A stretch of 34,341 nucleotides of DNA from a virus. How positions within the stretch are numbered: position 1 is the stretch's first letter; each line of letters opens with the position of its first letter. The position numbers were made by a program, and so were the translations under genes. The stretch lies in the IMG/VR virus record IMGVR_UViG_3300047551_001337, positions 1 to 34,341 of that record; one strand, given 5' to 3'. Of the stretch, positions 11,039-30,672 are shown one piece after another. A model generated the notes under the pieces. That model did not search any database and had not been told where the DNA came from. It saw only the letters and a program-made list of their open reading frames with translations.

Positions 11039-11052
11039 GTGTATTTTATTTT

Positions 11053-11100
11053 ACTACCCGGTACTGCCGGGTGCTGGTTATGCGTAAAGCGGCGCGTTAC
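11053..11100 (-). repeat. attC-like half-site G / 50-bp direct repeat copy 1
   Basis: Follows the Gp88-family gene. On the plus strand it reads as a CCCGG/CCGGG hairpin, then GTTATGCG, then GCGTAAAGCGGCGCGTTA. The last block is shared with the repeats at 12126, 12871 and 14157. Only the gene-proximal half looks like an attC; the distal R box is replaced by the CCCGG hairpin and GTAGTAAAAT. It lies at the array/phage-core junction. Confidence 0.55.
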
Positions 11101-11109
11101 CTGCAAGCA

Positions 11110-11781
11110 CTACTGACCTCCATCAAATAAAGTTCCGTTAAAAAAACTTTTATTAAAATCTGCCATTGCACTTTTTTTAGATACTTTCATATTGTCAATT
11201 AATGCAAAGTTAATGTTTGGCTTTCTTGCCCAATCATCATTATTGTCAATAGGTCGTTCTTTTGGTACTAAAATTGGACTTGCATAAACCTTGACATTTT
11301 TGAGATTATGCTTTTCAATTAACTCGTCTTGCCTACCTCCATAACTTGCAGTCAATACTAAATTTTCGGGTATATCATTTATTCTATTTACCCAATATTG
11401 TAGCGATTTTGTATAGGCCCACATTTCAATTGTTGGGTTATCTTTTGCAAGTTGCACCCACATATCAAAGTATTGTTGGTTAAAAAAATCGCCAGCAGCG
11501 TGTATTCGTATTGCCTTACAATCTTTTGGTATTATTGGAACGCCACCATTTTTAACCAAATCAAAATTTTTCCACCTGTGTTCTCTTACAGCGGGGAACC
11601 TTTCAGGGCTTGCAGCGTAGCACCTATACTGCCCTTTTTTTACGTCAAATTTACCCGTTAATCTATCAACGGTTACTTTACATTCTAAGGCAAACGGACA
11701 GCTACTGCCTGTGGGTAAGTTCCATTCATACACAATTCCTGTGTAATATTTTTTGTTTTTAATAAATTTTCCTTTGCTCAT
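11110..11781 (-). CDS. Gp88-family protein (Gene product 88), cassette gene
   Basis: 223 aa from the ATG at 11781; a 10-residue extension would require a TTG start. Seen: PTGSSCPFALEC with C28 and C34, then YRCYAASPERFPAVR with C54, IRIHAAGDFFNQQYFD at 91-106 and WAYTKS. This pattern is characteristic of the Gp88 family found in phages and accessory regions. The clustered cysteines suggest metal or Fe-S binding, but the biochemical role is not established. AT-rich codon use and absence of the ACACATG leader set it apart from phage-core genes. An attC-like half-site follows the stop. Confidence 0.75.
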   Translation of the reverse strand: MSKGKFIKNKKYYTGIVYEWNLPTGSSCPFALECKVTVDRLTGKFDVKKGQYRCYAASPERFPAVREHRWKNFDLVKNGGVPIIPKDCKAIRIHAAGDFFNQQYFDMWVQLAKDNPTIEMWAYTKSLQYWVNRINDIPENLVLTASYGGRQDELIEKHNLKNVKVYASPILVPKERPIDNNDDWARKPNINFALIDNMKVSKKSAMADFNKSFFNGTLFDGGQ

Positions 11782-11841
11782 TTTAATAAAAGTTTTTTGT
11801 TTGTATTTCAAATTAAGTTCCTGCTGAAATTACCGTGCCAG

Positions 11842-11920
11842 CATGTAACGCGGGTTCGGCGCAATTTCCCCAATGCACAAGCCGACACTCAACCGCGCCA
11901 AGCCCGAAAACGTTGGGCGC
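11842..11920 (-). repeat. attC-like palindrome F
   Basis: On the minus strand GCCCAAC (fits R'' RYYYAAC) opens the element and GTTACAT closes it (R' GTTRRRY with one mismatch). The outer arms pair as AACG/CGTT and TTCGG/CCGAA, and inner GC-rich arms pair as GCGG..CGGC. About 77 nt, within the size range of integron attC sites. It follows the start-less 65-codon ORF and precedes the Gp88 unit. Confidence 0.6.
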
Positions 11921-11924
11921 AATA

Positions 11925-12122
11925 CTAAGACCGAACCGCATTTAATTCGTGTTTAGCCATTTCAAGACCTTTTACAACTGCTGACATTACCATATTTAAA
12001 TCTGTTCCGCTAAACACCTGCCATCCTCCTTGTTTGTTAAATATGGCTTGATTATCCTTAAAATCTTCCGTCAGGCATTTGACTATTTTCTTTTTTATTA
12101 AATTTCGTTCTTTGTTTGTTAT
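11925..12122 (-). pseudogene. 65-codon cassette ORF lacking a standard start
   Basis: An open frame of 65 codons plus stop between two attC-like elements. It runs from just after a TAA; the first codon in a plausible start position is ATA at 12122, followed by TNKERNLIKKKIVK, and no ATG/GTG/TTG appears before Met43. Its remainder (NKQGGWQVFSGTDLNMVM, then GLEMAKHELNAV) looks like real protein: a compact alpha/beta mini-domain. Either it uses ATA, or its ATG was lost by mutation. No family recognised. Confidence 0.45.
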
Positions 12123-12125
12123 TTT

Positions 12126-12174
12126 TTACTACCCGGTTCCGCCGGGTGCGGGTTTAGTAAAGCGGCGCGTTAGC
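12126..12174 (-). repeat. attC-like half-site E / 50-bp direct repeat copy 2
   Basis: Near copy of the repeat at 11053-11100, with the same TTACTACCCGG and TAAAGCGGCGCGTTA blocks and a three-base deletion in between. The TAA stop of the 53-aa gene is part of the terminal GCTAACGC box, an arrangement known from integron cassettes. Confidence 0.55.
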
Positions 12175-12331
12175 TGCTATTTTGCGACAACTCCGCAACC
12201 TTAGATTTTACCATTGGCCTTATGACTTCCACCCATTCGACACGGACACGAAAAGCAATTGTTTTGGTTTGGTAGTTTGCCTTTTTGCGACCTGAGCCGA
12301 CACGCTTCCCTCCTTTAGTATTTTGCTTCAT
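12170..12331 (-). CDS. 53-aa basic protein, possible ribbon-helix-helix type
   Basis: Begins at the ATG at 12331, inside the last codons of the 76-aa gene (17-nt overlap in another frame), and ends with a TAA inside the attC-like box. The N-terminus is Gly/Lys/Arg-rich (KGGKRVGSGRKKANY), then KTIAFRVRVEWVEVIRPMVK. A beta strand followed by an amphipathic helix is the layout of small ribbon-helix-helix DNA-binding antitoxin-like proteins; this is an inference from pattern only. Third gene of a three-gene cassette. Confidence 0.6.
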   Translation of the reverse strand: MKQNTKGGKRVGSGRKKANYQTKTIAFRVRVEWVEVIRPMVKSKVAELSQNSS

Positions 12332-12545
12332 TTACCCAATGGTTTAAATCGTTTTCATTACAGGTTGCACCGTGAGCCTTTGCAAACAAAATCATATCTT
12401 CAACGGTAAATCTTCCATCTTTTAATCTATCAAGTTTTATAGCCTGTTCAATCATTCTTAAAACTTTGTTTTCATTATATTGATTTAAACCACCATACCC
12501 GCCATCTGGCAGGTATTGGTATATTATGTCTTTGTTGCTTTTCAT
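12315..12545 (-). CDS. Cassette protein, 76 aa
   Basis: Soluble, begins MKSNKDIIYQYLPDGGYG and has two predicted helices (ENKVLRMIEQAIKL and TVEDMILFAKAHG). ATGA overlap with the preceding 44-aa gene and a 17-nt overlap with the following 53-aa gene. No family recognised. Its downstream neighbour may be a DNA-binding protein, so an addiction or regulatory set is possible but not shown. Confidence 0.6.
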   Translation of the reverse strand: MKSNKDIIYQYLPDGGYGGLNQYNENKVLRMIEQAIKLDRLKDGRFTVEDMILFAKAHGATCNENDLNHWVNEAKY

Positions 12546-12676
12546 AACTCAATTGTTACCCAGTCATTTTTTAAATAGTAATATTTGCATCCAAAAAATT
12601 CATCAGCTAAGACAAGCGATAAAGTTGATATTACTTCTTTTGTTTCTCCTGTTTTTGTGTTTTTGTAAGTGTACAT
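12542..12676 (-). CDS. 44-aa cassette protein
   Basis: Small gene starting at the ATG at 12676, 31 nt below the -7 element of a strong Bacteroidetes-type promoter, and ending with an ATGA overlap onto the 76-aa gene. The sequence begins MYTYKNTKTGETKEVIS and contains an aromatic patch (FGCKYYYLKNDW). The promoter and overlap make this a convincing gene despite its size. Function unknown. Confidence 0.65.
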   Translation of the reverse strand: MYTYKNTKTGETKEVISTLSLVLADEFFGCKYYYLKNDWVTIEL

Positions 12677-12706
12677 TTTGTTTTGTTTTAATTGTTAATG
12701 ATGGTA

Positions 12707-12737
12707 CAAATATATAACCTATTTTGATAACTGCAAA
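12707..12737 (-). promoter_or_regulatory. Bacteroidetes-type promoter inside the array
   Basis: On the minus strand TTTG (-33 box, 12737-12734) and TATATTTG (fits TAnnTTTG, 12714-12707) are separated by 19 nt, the expected spacing for Bacteroidetes sigma-A promoters. It would start a transcript just upstream of the 44-aa gene. It gives this three-gene cassette its own expression. Confidence 0.75.
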
Positions 12738-12800
12738 CTTTTTTCAAAGATATTTTAAAATTATTTTCTAAAGTGCTGAAAATCAGATGGAATAACAGCA

Positions 12801-12918
12801 GCTAACACGCAATTTGCAAAATAAAAGCCATCAAGTGTAGTGCTAAAATTGAATGGTAGTGCAAGGATTTTACTTCGCCGCCGGGTGCGGGTTATGCGTA
12901 AAGCGGTGCGTTAGTGGC
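12801..12918 (-). repeat. attC-like palindrome D, including 50-bp repeat copy 3
   Basis: On the minus strand it opens with CCACTAACGCA and closes with TGCGTGTTAGC; the terminal arms TAACGCA/TGCG(T)GTTA are complementary. About 118 nt. The plus-strand right part (12868-12912) matches the repeats at 11053 and 12126. It follows the 81-aa gene and is followed by the promoter of the next unit. Confidence 0.65.
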
Positions 12919-12923
12919 AAGTG

Positions 12924-13169
12924 CTACATTATCGTTCCTAATTGAGCTTTTAAACATTGTGTCATTAGAATTGAACTGTCATCACCTTCTAAAATGCAAC
13001 CATTACTTCTTTCTACTCTGCAAAATTGTAAGTCGAGTTTATATCGTTGGCTTCTCCAATCAAAGTAGATTGCATTTTCTTTATCCAAGTCAATGTTTTT
13101 CATTTGTTCAGGGTAAGGTAACGCCCTGTTTAAAAGTTCAATTCCTTTACCTTTCGTTGTTATTAGCAT
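12924..13169 (-). CDS. Cassette protein, 81 aa
   Basis: Soluble protein beginning MLITTKGKGIELLNR, with an aromatic beta region (NAIYFDWRSQRYKLDLQF) and the segment CRVERSNGCILEGDDSSIL. Single-gene unit flanked by attC-like palindromes on both sides, the stop lying 6 nt from one. It lacks the ACACATG leader of phage-core genes. No family recognised. Confidence 0.6.
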   Translation of the reverse strand: MLITTKGKGIELLNRALPYPEQMKNIDLDKENAIYFDWRSQRYKLDLQFCRVERSNGCILEGDDSSILMTQCLKAQLGTIM

Positions 13170-13191
13170 TTTCGTTTAATTTACCGCACCA

Positions 13192-13296
13192 GCCACTAAC
13201 AGCGGTTTGATGCTATTATTTTGCCTATTGAATTTATCTAGGCTTGAAATATCTGCAAGGCAAAATAACAGACATCAAGCCGCAAACCGTTATGCG
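13192..13296 (-). repeat. attC-like palindrome C (best-formed)
   Basis: On the minus strand GCATAAC opens and GTTAGTGGC closes. Arms: GCGG/CCGC, TTGATG/CATCAA, and a long inner pairing TTATTTTGCC/GGCAAAATAA with a 33-nt loop. A short unpaired spacer (GGTTT) lies between the outer core box and the inner stem, as in integron attC sites. It lies between the Mom-like gene and the 81-aa gene. Confidence 0.75.
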
Positions 13297-13304
13297 TAAT
13301 GTGG

Positions 13305-14087
13305 CTACTTTTCGTTTTCATTTGACAGTTCGGTGGAAGAAAAATTTAAAATAGCCCCACCCGCTTCAACTTTTTCAAATTTGTTAGGTTTTTCAATGTA
13401 ATGCTTTGGGTATGGCATTTCTTTTAACAAACAGTCTTTTATTCTTCTTTGATGAATAAAATAGATATATCTAAATTGCCTTAAACTTTCTTTTTTTAAC
13501 TCGTCTTTCCTTGCTCTTATTTTCTCATATAATGGTCTTTTATCAGCGTGATGGGTTAATGCTATTTTATGCACATATTCACCATCTAAGCTATAAAAAT
13601 CAGATGTATGTTCACCGTAATATCTAAAATTTGCCGCTTGATAAACTATGCCTAAACCACCACATCTTTCATCAGCAAAAGATTGTATCCATTGTATTTT
13701 TTTGTGTTTACCTTTTATGTATTTTATTGAGTAGCTTAGTGCCTTACTTTCAGTATTTCGCCCGGCTTTATCGTCAATCCACATTCTATTTAATTCTAAA
13801 TGCTCATATATGCCAGTATCTTTTACAATATTTTTTGCACTTGCTGGGTTCATTGCAAAACCATATTGTAGCGTTCCCAAAAGCTCCCCATTTATGTAAA
13901 TTCCTAAATAAATATAGGTAGTAGCAAATCCGGCTACTTTTTTACTGTAATGATTTTTAATTATCATATCATTTGAAATATGCTTATCCATTTCTTTTAC
14001 ATAAAATTCTGGTTCTCCAAATCCTATTATTTCTTTTGCCCCAAACATTGACAGTTGGTCGCTGTATATGTAATCTTTTTTTGCCAT
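13305..14087 (-). CDS. Mom-like putative DNA-modification protein (GNAT fold), cassette gene
   Basis: 260 aa. The order of blocks follows the phage Mom-like family: NHYSKKVAGFATTYIYLGIY, GELLGTLQYGFAMNP, LELNRMWIDDKAGRNTESK, then IQWIQSFADERCGGLGIVYQ and AANFRYYGEHTSDFYSLDG. Mom of phage Mu modifies adenine and protects DNA from restriction enzymes; relatives share an acetyltransferase-like fold. Whether this protein modifies DNA is an inference. The C-terminus is basic (RARKDELKKESLRQFRYIYF). AT-rich, no ACACATG leader, flanked by attC-like palindromes, so likely recently acquired. Confidence 0.65.
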   Translation of the reverse strand: MAKKDYIYSDQLSMFGAKEIIGFGEPEFYVKEMDKHISNDMIIKNHYSKKVAGFATTYIYLGIYINGELLGTLQYGFAMNPASAKNIVKDTGIYEHLELNRMWIDDKAGRNTESKALSYSIKYIKGKHKKIQWIQSFADERCGGLGIVYQAANFRYYGEHTSDFYSLDGEYVHKIALTHHADKRPLYEKIRARKDELKKESLRQFRYIYFIHQRRIKDCLLKEMPYPKHYIEKPNKFEKVEAGGAILNFSSTELSNENEK

Positions 14088-14156
14088 CGCTGCTATTTTA
14101 AATTTTTCTTTTCATGTTCAAATTTAAGTTTTGTGCTAATTAACCGCCACACATAC

Positions 14157-14195
14157 GCATAACACGGGTTTTGCGTAAAGCGGCGTGTTATAAGC
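14157..14195 (-). repeat. Short attC-like palindrome B
   Basis: 39 nt. The minus strand opens CTTATAACACG and closes CGTGTTATGCG, with a 17-nt centre containing GCTTTACGC, the block shared with the other repeats. The TAA stop of the methylase-like gene forms part of the opening box. Confidence 0.6.
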
Positions 14196-14833
14196 AAGCT
14201 GCTACGTTCCTGCTCCGAATGAAAGTTCCCCATTGTTCAGCCATAGCTTTTGCCACCCCGCTGAAAGTTTTTGAGCTTTCCTTTTGGCTAATGTTTACAA
14301 ATTGGTATTTCTGTCCTCGTTTCTTACCTCCTGTATTGCTCGGCAAATACGGCTTATAGTTGCTTTTAATATCAGTAGGCTTTAATAGTGGCAAATTTTT
14401 CAACCATAATAAAGTTCGCTTACTAAATTCGTGTCCATATTCGTAGGGCTGTATTGCTTGGCTTTGTTTTGGTAATCCTACTACTTTTAATGGTGTTGGA
14501 TTCTCAACCGCAATATATTCAATCGGTGCGTTTAGTAGTTCCAAAAACATAGCCTTCGCTTCCATTGCTTTTGCAAATCTATCTTGGCACAAATTACCTG
14601 CCGTTGGGTACATCCATCTTGCTCCAGCCCTACTCATATAAGTGCAAGGTGGGTGTGCAATCATCATATCATATTTGCCACTATAAGCCTCCTTTACCGC
14701 ATCTCCTACAATATGCCATTCAGGTTTACCGCCACTACATTCTTGTAATGTCGCAACTATAAGCCTCAAATCCTAATTCTCGGAAAGCTCTGCAAACTTC
14801 TTGGCTCTCCTCACAAGCTATTAATATTTTCAT
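14188..14833 (-). pseudogene. C5-methylase-like protein gene with a frameshift, cassette gene
   Basis: The ATG at 14833 opens a frame beginning MKILIACEESQEVCRAFREL and reaching SCDI, then stops at 14735-14737. The neighbouring frame continues with QECSGGKPEWHIVGDAVKEA to a TAA at 14188. Removing one A near 14745-14750 joins them into a 214-aa protein. The second frame has HPPCTYMS (like the catalytic Pro-Cys loop of C5-cytosine methylases) and VENPTPLK (like the ENV motif). The family is a short phage methylase-like group. The break may be a real mutation, a sequencing error, or recoding. A short attC-like element overlaps the stop. Confidence 0.7.
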
Positions 14834-14868
14834 TTCAATTTAAGTTTTTCGTTAATAATCCGCAGCCA

Positions 14869-14955
14869 GCTTATAACAGCGGTTTTGTGCAAGCCGCTTG
14901 ACCGCTCAATGCCAACGCTTCGCAGCCTGACACAAAGCCGCCAAACGCTATAAGT
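14869..14955 (-). repeat. attC-like palindrome A (upstream edge of array)
   Basis: The minus strand opens ACTTATAGCG and closes CGCTGTTATAAGC. Arms: CTTATA/TATAAG outside, GCGGCTTTGTG/CACAAAACCGC inside, with further short complementary blocks in the centre. 87 nt. It stands before the methylase-like gene and is the first element of the array in the direction of transcription. Confidence 0.7.
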
Positions 14956-15105
14956 AATAGCGCAGGTACATCTTCCGCAGCCAACCTACCTTTCAGGGGT
15001 GGCAGGCAATACCTAAGTGCGTTCTTCTCTTTCGAGTGCGCTACTACCTTTTAACATTAGCTAAAACACAATAGGCAGGCGCGGCGCAGCCTTTTAACTT
15101 TCAGC
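14956..15105. other. Non-coding stretch upstream of the array
   Basis: No convincing ORF (only a 13-codon frame). The sequence contains several short GC-rich inverted repeats, for example CCTGCC/GGTAGG around 14985-15010, and two AGTGCG direct repeats. It does not fold into an obvious tRNA and no known RNA was recognised. It may be the remains of an older cassette or a small structured RNA. Confidence 0.4.
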
Positions 15106-15177
15106 CTATTTTCGCCGTTTTCTAAACTTGCAAGTCATACCATTTAACCGATCGCGTTTAGCCCAATTATTTTTCAT
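15106..15177 (-). CDS. 23-aa basic mini-ORF
   Basis: Begins MKNNWAKRDRLNGMTC and ends KFRKRRK, strongly basic. Its leader repeats 27 nt of the leader and start codon of the neighbouring lipoprotein gene, including ACACATG. That repeat either means a genuine small gene or a duplicated leader attached to unrelated sequence. Confidence 0.35.
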   Translation of the reverse strand: MKNNWAKRDRLNGMTCKFRKRRK

Positions 15178-15196
15178 GTGTGCTTATTTTTTGTTT
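15170..15196 (-). repeat. 27-nt leader repeat, copy 1
   Basis: Identical to 15497-15523: an A-rich leader followed by GCACACATGAAAAA on the minus strand. In both copies the ATG starts an ORF (23-aa mini-ORF here, lipoprotein in copy 2). The pair suggests a local duplication upstream of the array. Confidence 0.7.
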
Positions 15197-15237: not shown

Positions 15238-15504
15238 CTATTGTGCTAATACAAACTCAGTTATACCATCAATGTTAGAATTTGATAAATTAAGCGTTGT
15301 TACCTCCCTCATTCCTGTGCTATCTACTACATAAAATTTAAAGTTAGACCCCGACTTTCGATAAATCTTCGACTTCGGATAAACACGCTTAACATTATCT
15401 AGGCACTTTTTTTCGTCTAACGCATCATTGCAAGATGACAAAACAACCGTTGCCATTGCATACCCGACAATAGCGGTTATTGTGCTAATTTTTACTTTTT
15501 TCAT
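15238..15504 (-). CDS. Small lipoprotein, 88 aa
   Basis: N-terminal signal MKKVKISTITAIVGYAMATV followed by the lipobox LSSC with Cys25 as the lipid-attachment residue. The mature part (ALDEKKCLDNVKRVYPKSKI) is small and soluble with one further Cys. ACACATG start, overlapping the ninG-like gene by 20 nt. Phage lipoproteins of this sort sometimes block superinfection, but that is only a possibility here. Confidence 0.7.
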   Translation of the reverse strand: MKKVKISTITAIVGYAMATVVLSSCNDALDEKKCLDNVKRVYPKSKIYRKSGSNFKFYVVDSTGMREVTTLNLSNSNIDGITEFVLAQ

Positions 15505-15898
15505 GTGTGCTTATTTTTTGTTTGTAGTGTTCAATAATCTGTTCTAGCTCTTCGCGTGTCCATTTGTAGACTTTGTTTGCCATGTAGTCTGCTTCCAACC
15601 GGTTTACTTCGGCCTCTCCGATCTTTTTTATTAGGTTCAATCGGTAAGCTATCTGGTTCCCGTGTAAGTGGCAGTTACAGTAAGAACATTGTAAATGTAT
15701 GTTACTTTCTTTGAACCGCAAAAAAGAACTTTGATTTACCGCGATAAAGTGTCCCGCTTGATTGGCCTTGTCCGATCCGCACGATATACACGGCTTTCCC
15801 GCGTCCCGTAGTCGTATGTACTTATTACACAATTCCTGTGCCTTTGCTTTCAGCTTTGGGATCGGCACGACCTTAGTGGCTTTCTTTTTCATTTTCAT
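15485..15898 (-). CDS. ninG: NinG-like recombination protein
   Basis: 137 aa. The zinc-finger/HNH-like core CISCG (C37, C40) ... AGHF (H50) ... HLQCSYCNCHLHGN (H68, C71, C74, H77) is the lambda NinG (Rap) arrangement, a structure-specific endonuclease acting on recombination intermediates. The C-terminal helix region (YKWTREELEQIIEHYKQK) also fits. A second ATG at 15892 is possible. It sits after primase-helicase, as expected for recombination/replication genes. Confidence 0.85.
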   Translation of the reverse strand: MKMKKKATKVVPIPKLKAKAQELCNKYIRLRDAGKPCISCGSDKANQAGHFIAVNQSSFLRFKESNIHLQCSYCNCHLHGNQIAYRLNLIKKIGEAEVNRLEADYMANKVYKWTREELEQIIEHYKQKISTHEKSKN

Positions 15899-28807: not shown

Positions 28808-30672
28808 TAGCTTGTTTTTTTAACGACCAGATTCATTTTCCATACGTGCCGGCAATAGGGAGTTATTACGCCATTTCCCTGATTCCAAAATCCCCCGCGC
28901 CGATTCCATACGCTATACCCTACACGTTCCGAAATTGTTTCAATATCTTTCCGCGTATAAAGTCTGTTAAGCGTTACCATTTTTCGGCAAAATGGCCGCG
29001 TAGTCGGTAAGATAGCAGGCCCTTCAACCCCCGGCCCTTTTTCGTAAGAATACATGACTTTCACATCCGGTAGCTTAATAGTACGTGTAGGCGGTGTTTC
29101 CCGCGTTGGTTGTGTTCCGCGTGTTGGACTTTCGCCGCTTACTACTCCCTCCTGCTCCTCCGCGAAAGAAAGGCGCATCGCCATTTCCATCATGTCTATG
29201 TCGTATTCATTATCGGTCGAAAATGTTTCGGACCGCAATACCTCCCAGCCTTCGCCATCGGTTCCATGTTCGGCAAATAGTTGCGCTATCTGATCTTCAC
29301 TTAGCACCTCTTTAAATTCCTGCGGAGTTCCCAAAATGGTATTTATATCCTCATCGGACAAACCTAGCGAAGTCTTAAGCTCCCATGCAGCACGCTGTCG
29401 AGTGTATTCGCCCTTATTGAACTTACGGATAATCCTATCCATGTTAGCCCGTTGCCGACCGGTCAGGTTCTTCAGATGGTCATTTACTTCATTTGCCATG
29501 CTCTCAGGTGCACCGGGTGCAAGCGGATATTTTTCTAAGTCAACACCCAGCTTTTCGGCTATCCATTCTACGGGCATCGCTCCCAGTTGCCCCGAAAGGT
29601 CATAGCCAATCGGCTCTACGGGCTTAAGCTTAAACTTACACGGGATGCCTTTCAGCTTTGCAAACTTGTTTAATACCTCCTCAAATTGCGCCCGCTTATT
29701 GGCAACATAAGTGTTATTAAAAATCTCAAATGCGTTTCTTAGCTCCGTTGTGCCTCCCAATTGCCCCGCCTCTTTAACCCCGAACAAGATCGGCGAAGTA
29801 ATCTCATGCCCCGCGTAGATATTATCGCATATCAGATTATTAACGGCACTAAAATCTTCCTTAGTTAAGTCCGAAGCTCCCAGGTCTAAAATTTCCGGTT
29901 TTTTTGCCGGGTCATTATTGAAAGAAATAAAAATCTTTTTCCCATCGGCCCCGGTGTACTTGTCATGCAGCCTTTCTTCCAGTTTTCTTTTGGCCCGTTC
30001 GTCGGGTTCGCCATTAAAGAAAGAAAGCATTTTAGAGGCCGAAAATCCCGCCTTACTATTGGTGTAGGTGTGCTTGCCCATCTCACAGTCAGCACCAATC
30101 CAATTTAACGCCCCCATGTAGCCGGGTTCGGGATAGTACGGACATCCGGGCCTATACTCGTCGAAATAGTAAATAGCCGATTGCGCTTCATTCGAGCGCG
30201 GATTGAATGCAGGAAACTCTTTCGGCTTTTCCCGCCCATCTTTCCAGTCGTATTTAAAAAAGAATTTTTGAAGGTCAGCAGCCCGGCGCATTTTGGGCCA
30301 TTCCATGTGAAACACATCCGTAATACGCCCAATCCGATCAGTAATAACGTGCCAGTAAAAACCGCCAAATGTTTCGGTATCGTCTATGCTTTTCCGTAGC
30401 ACATCGCTCAAGGATTCGCCCCGGCTGTTGCAACTGCTTATCCATACTTCACCAACCGGGTTTGGTTGCTCCATTTCAATCCCACCACCAAAAATGTATT
30501 TAACCTTTCCATTAATGATGGCGTTATGTTTGGGGCTTTCCTTTCGGAACTTTAAAAGCTTTTCGGCCCAATCATCAGACAGCCCCAACGGTATGTAAGG
30601 CTTTGCGCCCACACGCCTATACTTTGGTGCTTCGACCTCTAAAAACTTTAATGCTATTGGTGTAAATTCCAT
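28807..30672 (-). CDS. Portal protein with extra C-terminal domain
   Basis: 621 aa. Portal features: PKHNAIINGKVKYIFGGG near the N-terminus, a crown/wing section (FEIFNNTYVANKRAQFEEVL) and GHEITSPILFGVKEAGQLGG. The last 80 residues (TTRPFCRKMVTLNRLY, then ETISERVGYSVWNRRGGF and TPYCRHVWKMNLVV) resemble the C-terminal part of Mu gpF-like minor head proteins, suggesting a fusion. A basic Pro/Thr linker (GTQPTRETPPTRT) joins the parts. Confidence 0.75.
   Translation of the reverse strand: MEFTPIALKFLEVEAPKYRRVGAKPYIPLGLSDDWAEKLLKFRKESPKHNAIINGKVKYIFGGGIEMEQPNPVGEVWISSCNSRGESLSDVLRKSIDDTETFGGFYWHVITDRIGRITDVFHMEWPKMRRAADLQKFFFKYDWKDGREKPKEFPAFNPRSNEAQSAIYYFDEYRPGCPYYPEPGYMGALNWIGADCEMGKHTYTNSKAGFSASKMLSFFNGEPDERAKRKLEERLHDKYTGADGKKIFISFNNDPAKKPEILDLGASDLTKEDFSAVNNLICDNIYAGHEITSPILFGVKEAGQLGGTTELRNAFEIFNNTYVANKRAQFEEVLNKFAKLKGIPCKFKLKPVEPIGYDLSGQLGAMPVEWIAEKLGVDLEKYPLAPGAPESMANEVNDHLKNLTGRQRANMDRIIRKFNKGEYTRQRAAWELKTSLGLSDEDINTILGTPQEFKEVLSEDQIAQLFAEHGTDGEGWEVLRSETFSTDNEYDIDMMEMAMRLSFAEEQEGVVSGESPTRGTQPTRETPPTRTIKLPDVKVMYSYEKGPGVEGPAILPTTRPFCRKMVTLNRLYTRKDIETISERVGYSVWNRRGGFWNQGNGVITPYCRHVWKMNLVVKKTS

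Follow-up and report, generated by a model that had tools for sequence, protein, structure and literature searches.

Layout of the array

The stretch of DNA analysed here (the window) comprises the 34,341 bases of the phage record IMGVR_UViG_3300047551_001337 in IMG/VR, whose minus strand carries terminase, portal, primase, and replication genes. A cassette array occupies positions 11,040-14,960 of the same strand, with AAC...GTT elements interposed between gene cores. The original prediction, made from the sequence alone, was that of an integron-like array of co-directional gene units, separated by seven palindromic elements of this kind; the seven elements (E1 to E7, located below) do separate such units on the minus strand. 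The cassettes are modular, are gained and lost as exact units, obey a common rule at their ends, and stop at a fixed anchor, with a polarity that is the reverse of that of a classical integron.

Read in gene orientation (from high to low coordinates), the array begins with E7 (14,878-14,946; z=-1.6 for the fold of 14,862-14,960), an attC-like hairpin located 5' of a methyltransferase core, with a degenerate upstream R'' box (TATAGC, not TAAC). The same hairpin family also precedes the methyltransferase cassettes of two IMG/VR contigs, L001 and L092. The core that follows (14,187-14,877; open reading frame (ORF) 14,188-~14,832; ends GTTATAAGCTGGCTG / GTTATAAGCAAGCTG) carries a DNA methyltransferase homologue. 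This homologue is frameshifted near 14,750 (14,740-14,770), its N-terminal part and the remainder lying in different frames, which reflects either gene decay or a sequencing error. The short attC-like hairpin E6 (14,164-14,186; z=-5.8 for its circle-junction fold, defined below) is followed by a Mom-family DNA-modification gene (core 13,289-14,163; ORF 13,305-14,087; PF25680, E=1e-63) with the matching ends GTTATGCGTA. E5 (13,201-13,288), the best folder among the attC-like hairpins (z=-3.76 in the array, for 13,190-13,299, and z=-7.4 as a circle junction), comes before the core of an 81-aa protein of unassigned function (12,910-13,200; ORF 12,924-13,169; matching ends GTTAGTGGCTGGTGC / GTTAGTGGCAAGTGC).

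E4 (12,807-12,909) is a composite element, the left arm of which is anchor-like at its start, and it folds weakly (z=-0.8 as a circle junction). The next core (12,169-12,806) is a two-ORF unit (12,315-12,545 and 12,170-12,331), with 471 bp common to a sister phage. E3 (12,108-12,168) is a second copy of the anchor within the array, with 82-86% identity to the first copy and to the sister phage's anchor. Further on lie a degenerate unit (11,912-12,107), with a short ORF and the terminus TTGCGCCCAAC, the hairpin E2 (11,850-11,911), and the core of a GP88-family gene (11,096-11,849; ORF 11,110-11,811; PF17338, E=1e-28; matching ends GTTACATGCTGGCAC / GTTACCTGCAAGCAC), whose relatives are present in the arrays of contigs L235 and L236. 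The array finishes with E1 (~11,040-11,095), the first anchor copy, a fixed attI-like end located directly before a conserved phage gene (10,718-11,038) and kept in the sister phage. E7, E6, E2, and the degenerate unit were assigned from sequence. All seven predicted palindromic elements are, therefore, present, but E1 and E3 are anchor copies and not hairpin sites. No Rfam family matches the window elements.

Cassette ends and hairpins

Each core starts with GTT and ends with AAC in gene direction, and its start matches the reverse complement of its own end: GTTATAAGC for the methyltransferase, GTTATGCGTA for Mom, GTTAGTGGC for the 81-aa protein, GTTAGCTGCT for the two-ORF unit, and GTTAC.TGC for GP88. 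As the match reaches across the gene, the two ends belong together and constitute a cassette signature. Among 47 distinct cores from nine sources, start and reverse-complemented end agree at 94-100% for positions 1-9, 85% for position 10, 94-98% for positions 12-14, and 77% for position 15; position 11 is mismatched in 47 of 47, with G (45 cores) or T (two cores) at the start and A (all 47) at the end. The first four nucleotides at both ends are GTTA (43 cores) or GTTG (four cores), and all 47 cores display the R''/R' boxes typical of integrons and of CALINs (clusters of attC sites lacking an integron integrase), i.e., YAAC ... GTTR with a hairpin between them. A core's own ends agree at 9.5 of the 11 tested positions, versus 4.3 with shuffled partners (maximum 5.4 in 10,000).

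The pattern exceeds what chance would produce: the best GTT...AAC inverted pairs across the 34-kb window mostly tile the array region, and a scan with the asymmetric 15-nt rule yielded 171 cores over all 268 loci, compared with five in shuffled copies. Within arrays, the rule-derived cores sit on the gene strand. A chain detector with loose thresholds gave occasional false chains in shuffled DNA; the thresholds were consequently raised, and the position-11 rule was used instead. In the control analysed with the same scripts, the classical integron of Shewanella phage M16-3, the ends match over ~9 nt and the position-11 rule is absent. The end match of classical attC sites can extend to 9-11 nt (PMC2727003).

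Inverted 15-nt ends around each gene would also be found if each core were a small transposon with terminal inverted repeats. This is very unlikely, since no transposase was noticed in the units, end sequences vary between cassettes, and the units are arranged head to tail with hairpins between them, the hairpin moving with the gene.

When the circle junction of a unit (its own end, its hairpin, and its own start) is folded as DNA, the median z is -4.6 over 45 units, while the same hairpins folded as they stand in the array reach a median of only -1.3. The attC-like folding that the prediction called for is seen in the array for 13,190-13,299 and, less strongly, for 14,862-14,960, but most other window elements are indistinguishable from shuffles on their own. 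Since part of the full stem is provided by the opposite end of the cassette, only some elements fold well alone. Hairpins between co-directional genes, to which no Rfam family assigns another identity, could be viewed as transcription terminators or attenuators of an operon and not as recombination sites; this is exceedingly improbable, as the complementarity joins the two ends of a gene across that gene, and the gain and loss of whole units at the boxes (see below) refutes it as the sole explanation.

The two arms of the hairpins are asymmetric, with the consensus AAC-GTTT(C/T)-GCGGCTTTGCGAAGTGGC for the left arm and AAC-A-GCGGTTTTGCAAAATGGC (reverse complement) for the right one; about four extra bases (GTTT) and recurrent mismatches are located in the arm on the AAC breakpoint side. 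Classical attC sites have their extrahelical bases in the arm opposite the crossover (PMC2727003), whereas here the extras adjoin the AAC breakpoint.

Most ORFs stop 1-30 nt short of the core end, and in some the stop codon is part of TAAC. For 16 of the 46 units, the start of the longest ATG ORF is located within the hairpin loop, its frame running on across the GTT box; the recombination hairpin can thus supply the gene start, which may be the reason why it stays with the downstream gene. The Bacteroidota -7 box is TAnnTTTG, and TTAAATTTG-like sequences present at several cassette starts (14,100-14,130 and 11,800-11,815) resemble it; some units may bring their own promoter. A leader, AAAAATAAGCACACATGAAAAA, is repeated before successive genes upstream of the array (15,172-15,196 and 15,495-15,530) and is also found in L001, there at the array start.

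Exchange of units, anchor, and polarity

The sister phage, IMG/VR contig L001, is 90-96% identical to the window along most of the backbone, with a different array at the same site. The two share one unit (471 bp, 100% identical, at another array position), the identity ending at GCAGCTAAC(G) on the 3' side. In L001 (12,730-12,760), a junction away from any box joins this unit to the first part of a methyltransferase-like ORF; this 5' junction within an ORF is a separate deletion or fusion, illegitimate recombination also occurring in the arrays. The window methyltransferase cassette is found in the arrays of six phage contigs (L001, L088, L092, L096, L097, and L098), between which pairwise BLAST matches stop at, or within about a dozen nucleotides of, the GTT and AAC boxes. 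L102, L146, L171, L174, L235, and L236 also carry arrays (bringing the IMG/VR contigs with arrays to about a dozen), and Polaribacter phage P12002L (L087) has two. For Baltic Flavobacterium phages, 46 GenBank/RefSeq records were matched, of which 11 were examined: their arrays contain ~6 to 13 units at one locus, from 27 core families. The array phages infect Flavobacteria-like hosts. Our own detector found no array in Cellulophaga phages phi19:1 and phi18:1, and neither the methyltransferase protein nor a 5-kb piece of the lillamy array had a match among the plasmids searched. The anchor/left-arm pattern had two matches in genome contigs, both apparently due to chance, in coding DNA, and these were discarded. 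Positions 1-2378 of L092 have the same 79 bp at both ends, as in a circular assembly of ~2.3 kb of cassettes; either the excision of a circle of several cassettes or an artefact of assembly could have produced this, and the wrap-around is not a clean cassette junction.

The 11 isolates share stretches of 99-100% identity, with shuffled unit content. Relative to snork6-1, phage snork6-2 is missing exactly one unit, with CTTGCTTATAAC|anchor as the join, and the tooticki and mumin phages differ by one unit, with the join GGTTAAC|GTTATC. Over all pairs of isolates, the distinct 3' breakpoints fall 0-12 nt beyond the AAC of a core end in 46 of 55 cases (background 2.2%), and the distinct 5' breakpoints fall within -18..+1 of such an AAC in 46 of 58 cases (background 3.4%); breakpoints were made distinct by sequence and, as the phages are related, the events are not fully independent. 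Together with the sister-phage swap, these counts strongly support the predicted gain, loss, and reordering of units with breakpoints at the boxes. The breakpoints had, however, been expected at G^TT, and are observed at the AAC (R'') side in gene orientation. Core c10 has two different upstream hairpins in L223 (snork6-1) and L219 (mymlan6-1), with a breakpoint at the GTT box: this is a rare exchange at the other box.

One and the same anchor, AAC|GCGCCGCTTTACGCATAA..., closes the arrays of both the window and L001, although their last cassettes differ; a conserved phage gene common to both follows directly. This fixed array end is not a hairpin, and the genes point towards it. In the 11 Flavobacterium phages, the same anchor is found beside different cassettes, with no evident similarity to the units. 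The anchor-adjacent cassettes vary the most, and the distal ones are common to phages; the anchor, thus, behaves like attI, and it would correspond to the fixed insertion end of an integron, as far as can be judged from the sequences adjoining it. Two copies of the anchor AACGGATAAAACAAGTTTTACC..., at ~29,190-29,240 and 37,200-37,270, end the two separate arrays of P12002L. With two copies each in the window and in P12002L, anchors may duplicate or move.

Phage mosaicism, generated by homologous or short-homology recombination (through annealing proteins, NinG/Rap, or template switching at hairpins) and requiring no site-specific recombinase, would be in line with the 5-12 nt common at junctions, and co-isolated phages can exchange DNA. 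A NinG/Rap-type Holliday-junction endonuclease gene (15,485-15,898) is even present close to the array in the window, and NinG is found in six of 10 array phages. Nevertheless, the other array phages are devoid of NinG, different units adjoin one fixed non-hairpin anchor without evident similarity to them, and homologous exchange leaves unexplained both the covariation of ends within a cassette and a hairpin completed only in the circle, which makes this explanation unlikely.

The polarity of the mobile unit was determined from cores found in different contexts. For the same core with different upstream neighbours, the identity of the upstream hairpin is 0.91-1.00 (median 1.00; 15 of 15 comparisons), while with different identified downstream neighbours that of the downstream hairpin is 0.49-0.70, at background; three downstream comparisons, of identity 1.0, were set aside from this range, as the downstream unit, not identified at first, proved identical. 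Upstream and downstream hairpin identities differ (Mann-Whitney p=5e-7) with these three comparisons included. As the upstream hairpin is constant and the downstream one variable, the mobile unit consists of a hairpin and the gene downstream of it. In M16-3, one cassette is present in both of its two arrays, with a core identity of 0.99, an upstream hairpin identity of 0.47, and a downstream hairpin identity of 0.99, which is the classical polarity; the method, therefore, does not of itself generate the reversed polarity. No earlier description of it was found in the open-access literature searched.

If the locus were a plain CALIN, its classical attC sites loaded in the classical polarity by the integron integrase (IntI) of a host, this would account for the AAC/GTT boxes, the hairpins, the stop codons beside or in R'', and the attI-like end, and IntI1 activity was published for one P12002L site (PMC9892861). 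Yet the attC of an integron or CALIN follows and moves with the upstream gene, with a crossover at R' (G^TT), whereas here the hairpin travels with the downstream gene, the breakpoints are on the AAC side, and the arm extras are on that breakpoint side. Neither do the last gene, which has no hairpin after it, nor the 15-nt ends with their fixed mismatch (against ~9 matching nt in the classical control) fit such an array, which we regard as quite unlikely. The prediction of a classical integron-like array is thus not upheld, given the AAC-side breakpoints, the hairpin associated with the downstream gene, and an array end of the form AAC|anchor, without a terminal hairpin.

Proposed mechanism and biological role

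We consider it likely that the locus is a phage-borne array of mobile cassettes of reverse polarity, which move as circles, use an attI-like anchor, and depend on a recombinase provided in trans. The mobile unit, in gene orientation, would be [hairpin]-GTT-gene-AAC. Movement as circles is proposed because the ends are complementary and because the circle junctions fold: the two ends of a unit would then flank its own hairpin, yielding a complete recombination site, presumably folded from single-stranded DNA. The units would insert at or next to the phage-resident anchor, acting like attI, and would be lost by recombination at the AAC boxes, where the breakpoints are observed and the chemistry is presumed. 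Genes pointing towards the anchor would fit the phage's own upstream transcription reading through the array.

Several points weigh against this model. A number of window elements fold poorly; a few breakpoints are located elsewhere, with only two at the GTT box; and junctions share 5-12 nt (TAACGTT and similar), so that individual losses could have occurred by short-homology recombination. Diverged metagenomic phages with the same core have different hairpins on both sides. No recombinase was identified in the array-bearing records searched, and the accessible text of PMC9892861 does not give the position of the active P12002L site or its strand relative to the genes.

The IntI profile TIGR02249 has no match in the window, and no tyrosine recombinase (PF00589) was found in the window, L001, L088, L092, and 11 further phage records, several of the IMG/VR records possibly being fragments, while positive controls were detected. 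The prediction of an integrase-less cassette array inside a phage is supported, and its own check, a swapping of units between relatives, came out positive. Two candidates for a universal recombinase were rejected: the serine recombinase PF00239, found in one record only (L098), and NinG, owing to its incomplete distribution. Only one viral contig with a relationship to the Shewanella IntI was found (L270), and the part of it examined contains no array of this type. The enzyme would most likely be supplied by the host or another element, the best candidate being an integron-integrase-type tyrosine recombinase encoded by the host or by a co-resident element; the original suggestion of loading by a host integrase is plausible. 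In favour of this, IntI1 integrated one of two tested P12002L sites into attI1 with a frequency that did not differ from that of the control, no recombination being reported for the second (PMC9892861).

The array works like an integron cassette array, but departs from the classical family in integrase, polarity, and arm asymmetry. With M16-3, it shares GTT/AAC boxes, hairpin sites, matching cassette ends, and one fixed insertion end. Classical integrons encode IntI, and have the hairpin after the gene with which it moves, ~9 matching end nucleotides, and more symmetric spacers; in the phage arrays, the hairpin precedes the gene, the ends span 15 nt and contain one fixed mismatch, the crossover box has a 4-nt one-sided extra, the genes point towards the anchor, and no IntI was found in the records searched. 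Non-classical cassette insertion sites, termed attG, accept cassettes beside a short box, the surrounding DNA being otherwise unrelated. Such attG-like insertions could explain the anchor differences between phage lineages, although anchors are stable array ends and are duplicated in two phages. Xer-dif (pdif) modules are also comparable, with genes flanked by inverted recombination sites and a recombinase supplied by the host, but here the end sequences are cassette-specific with hairpins between them, and no 28-bp dif-like site was noticed, in the absence of a formal dif search.

Phage CALINs are already known, P12002L among them: it was reported in 2023 as an integrase-less attC array, along with CALINs in virulent phages (Qi et al. 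2023, PMC9892861). P12002L resembles the window in its two integrase-less arrays with methyltransferase and Mom cargo, one site of which was recombined by IntI1; in that paper, the sites are called integron attC with divergent directions. The reversed polarity, the end rule, the attI-like anchor, natural gain and loss in isolates, and the wide family go beyond that account, as far as it was accessible. A reading to which we give a little less than even credence is that of a separate, phage-adapted cassette-exchange system, and not a degenerate integron, with a dedicated, possibly non-IntI recombinase in trans, serving as an anti-restriction platform in Bacteroidota phages. It would include the reverse-polarity folded sites, the 15-nt cassette-specific ends, the strand-marking mismatch, the hairpin-supplied start codons, and the attI-like anchor.

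The cargo consists of methyltransferases, Mom, and small proteins of unassigned function; by coordinates, annotated DNA methyltransferases account for 10 of the 27 core families of the 11 Flavobacterium phages. Some phages isolated on Flavobacterium sp. LMO9, including lillamy9-1 and morran9-1, are reported to show plating on LMO6 that is reduced by 3-4 logs, unless LMO6 was the host on which they were last propagated; a particular methyltransferase is missing from every LMO9 phage with such a reduction (PMC7077304). The c10 methyltransferase unit is absent in lillamy9-1, which morran9-1 matches across the 4.7 kb compared, and is present in the LMO6-isolated snork, hemulen, mumin, mymlan, and tooticki phages. 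The LMO6 isolate snusmum6-1 is without c10 and carries another methyltransferase unit (c17). This isolate notwithstanding, c10 is a natural candidate for the plating-linked methyltransferase, as suggested by its distribution, and the array probably lets a phage lineage exchange protection against host restriction.

Cassette polarity is, overall, not universal, and the rule for the cassette ends (15 nt, with G/A fixed at position 11) offers a simple way to find the family in other genomes. The arrays suggest a way in which anti-restriction genes could be exchanged between lytic phages, cassette by cassette. Isolated pairs of Flavobacterium sp. LMO6/LMO9 and their phages, in which single-cassette differences are already natural and methyltransferase content goes with a 3-4 log plating difference (PMC7077304), make this phage counterpart of the integron directly testable.

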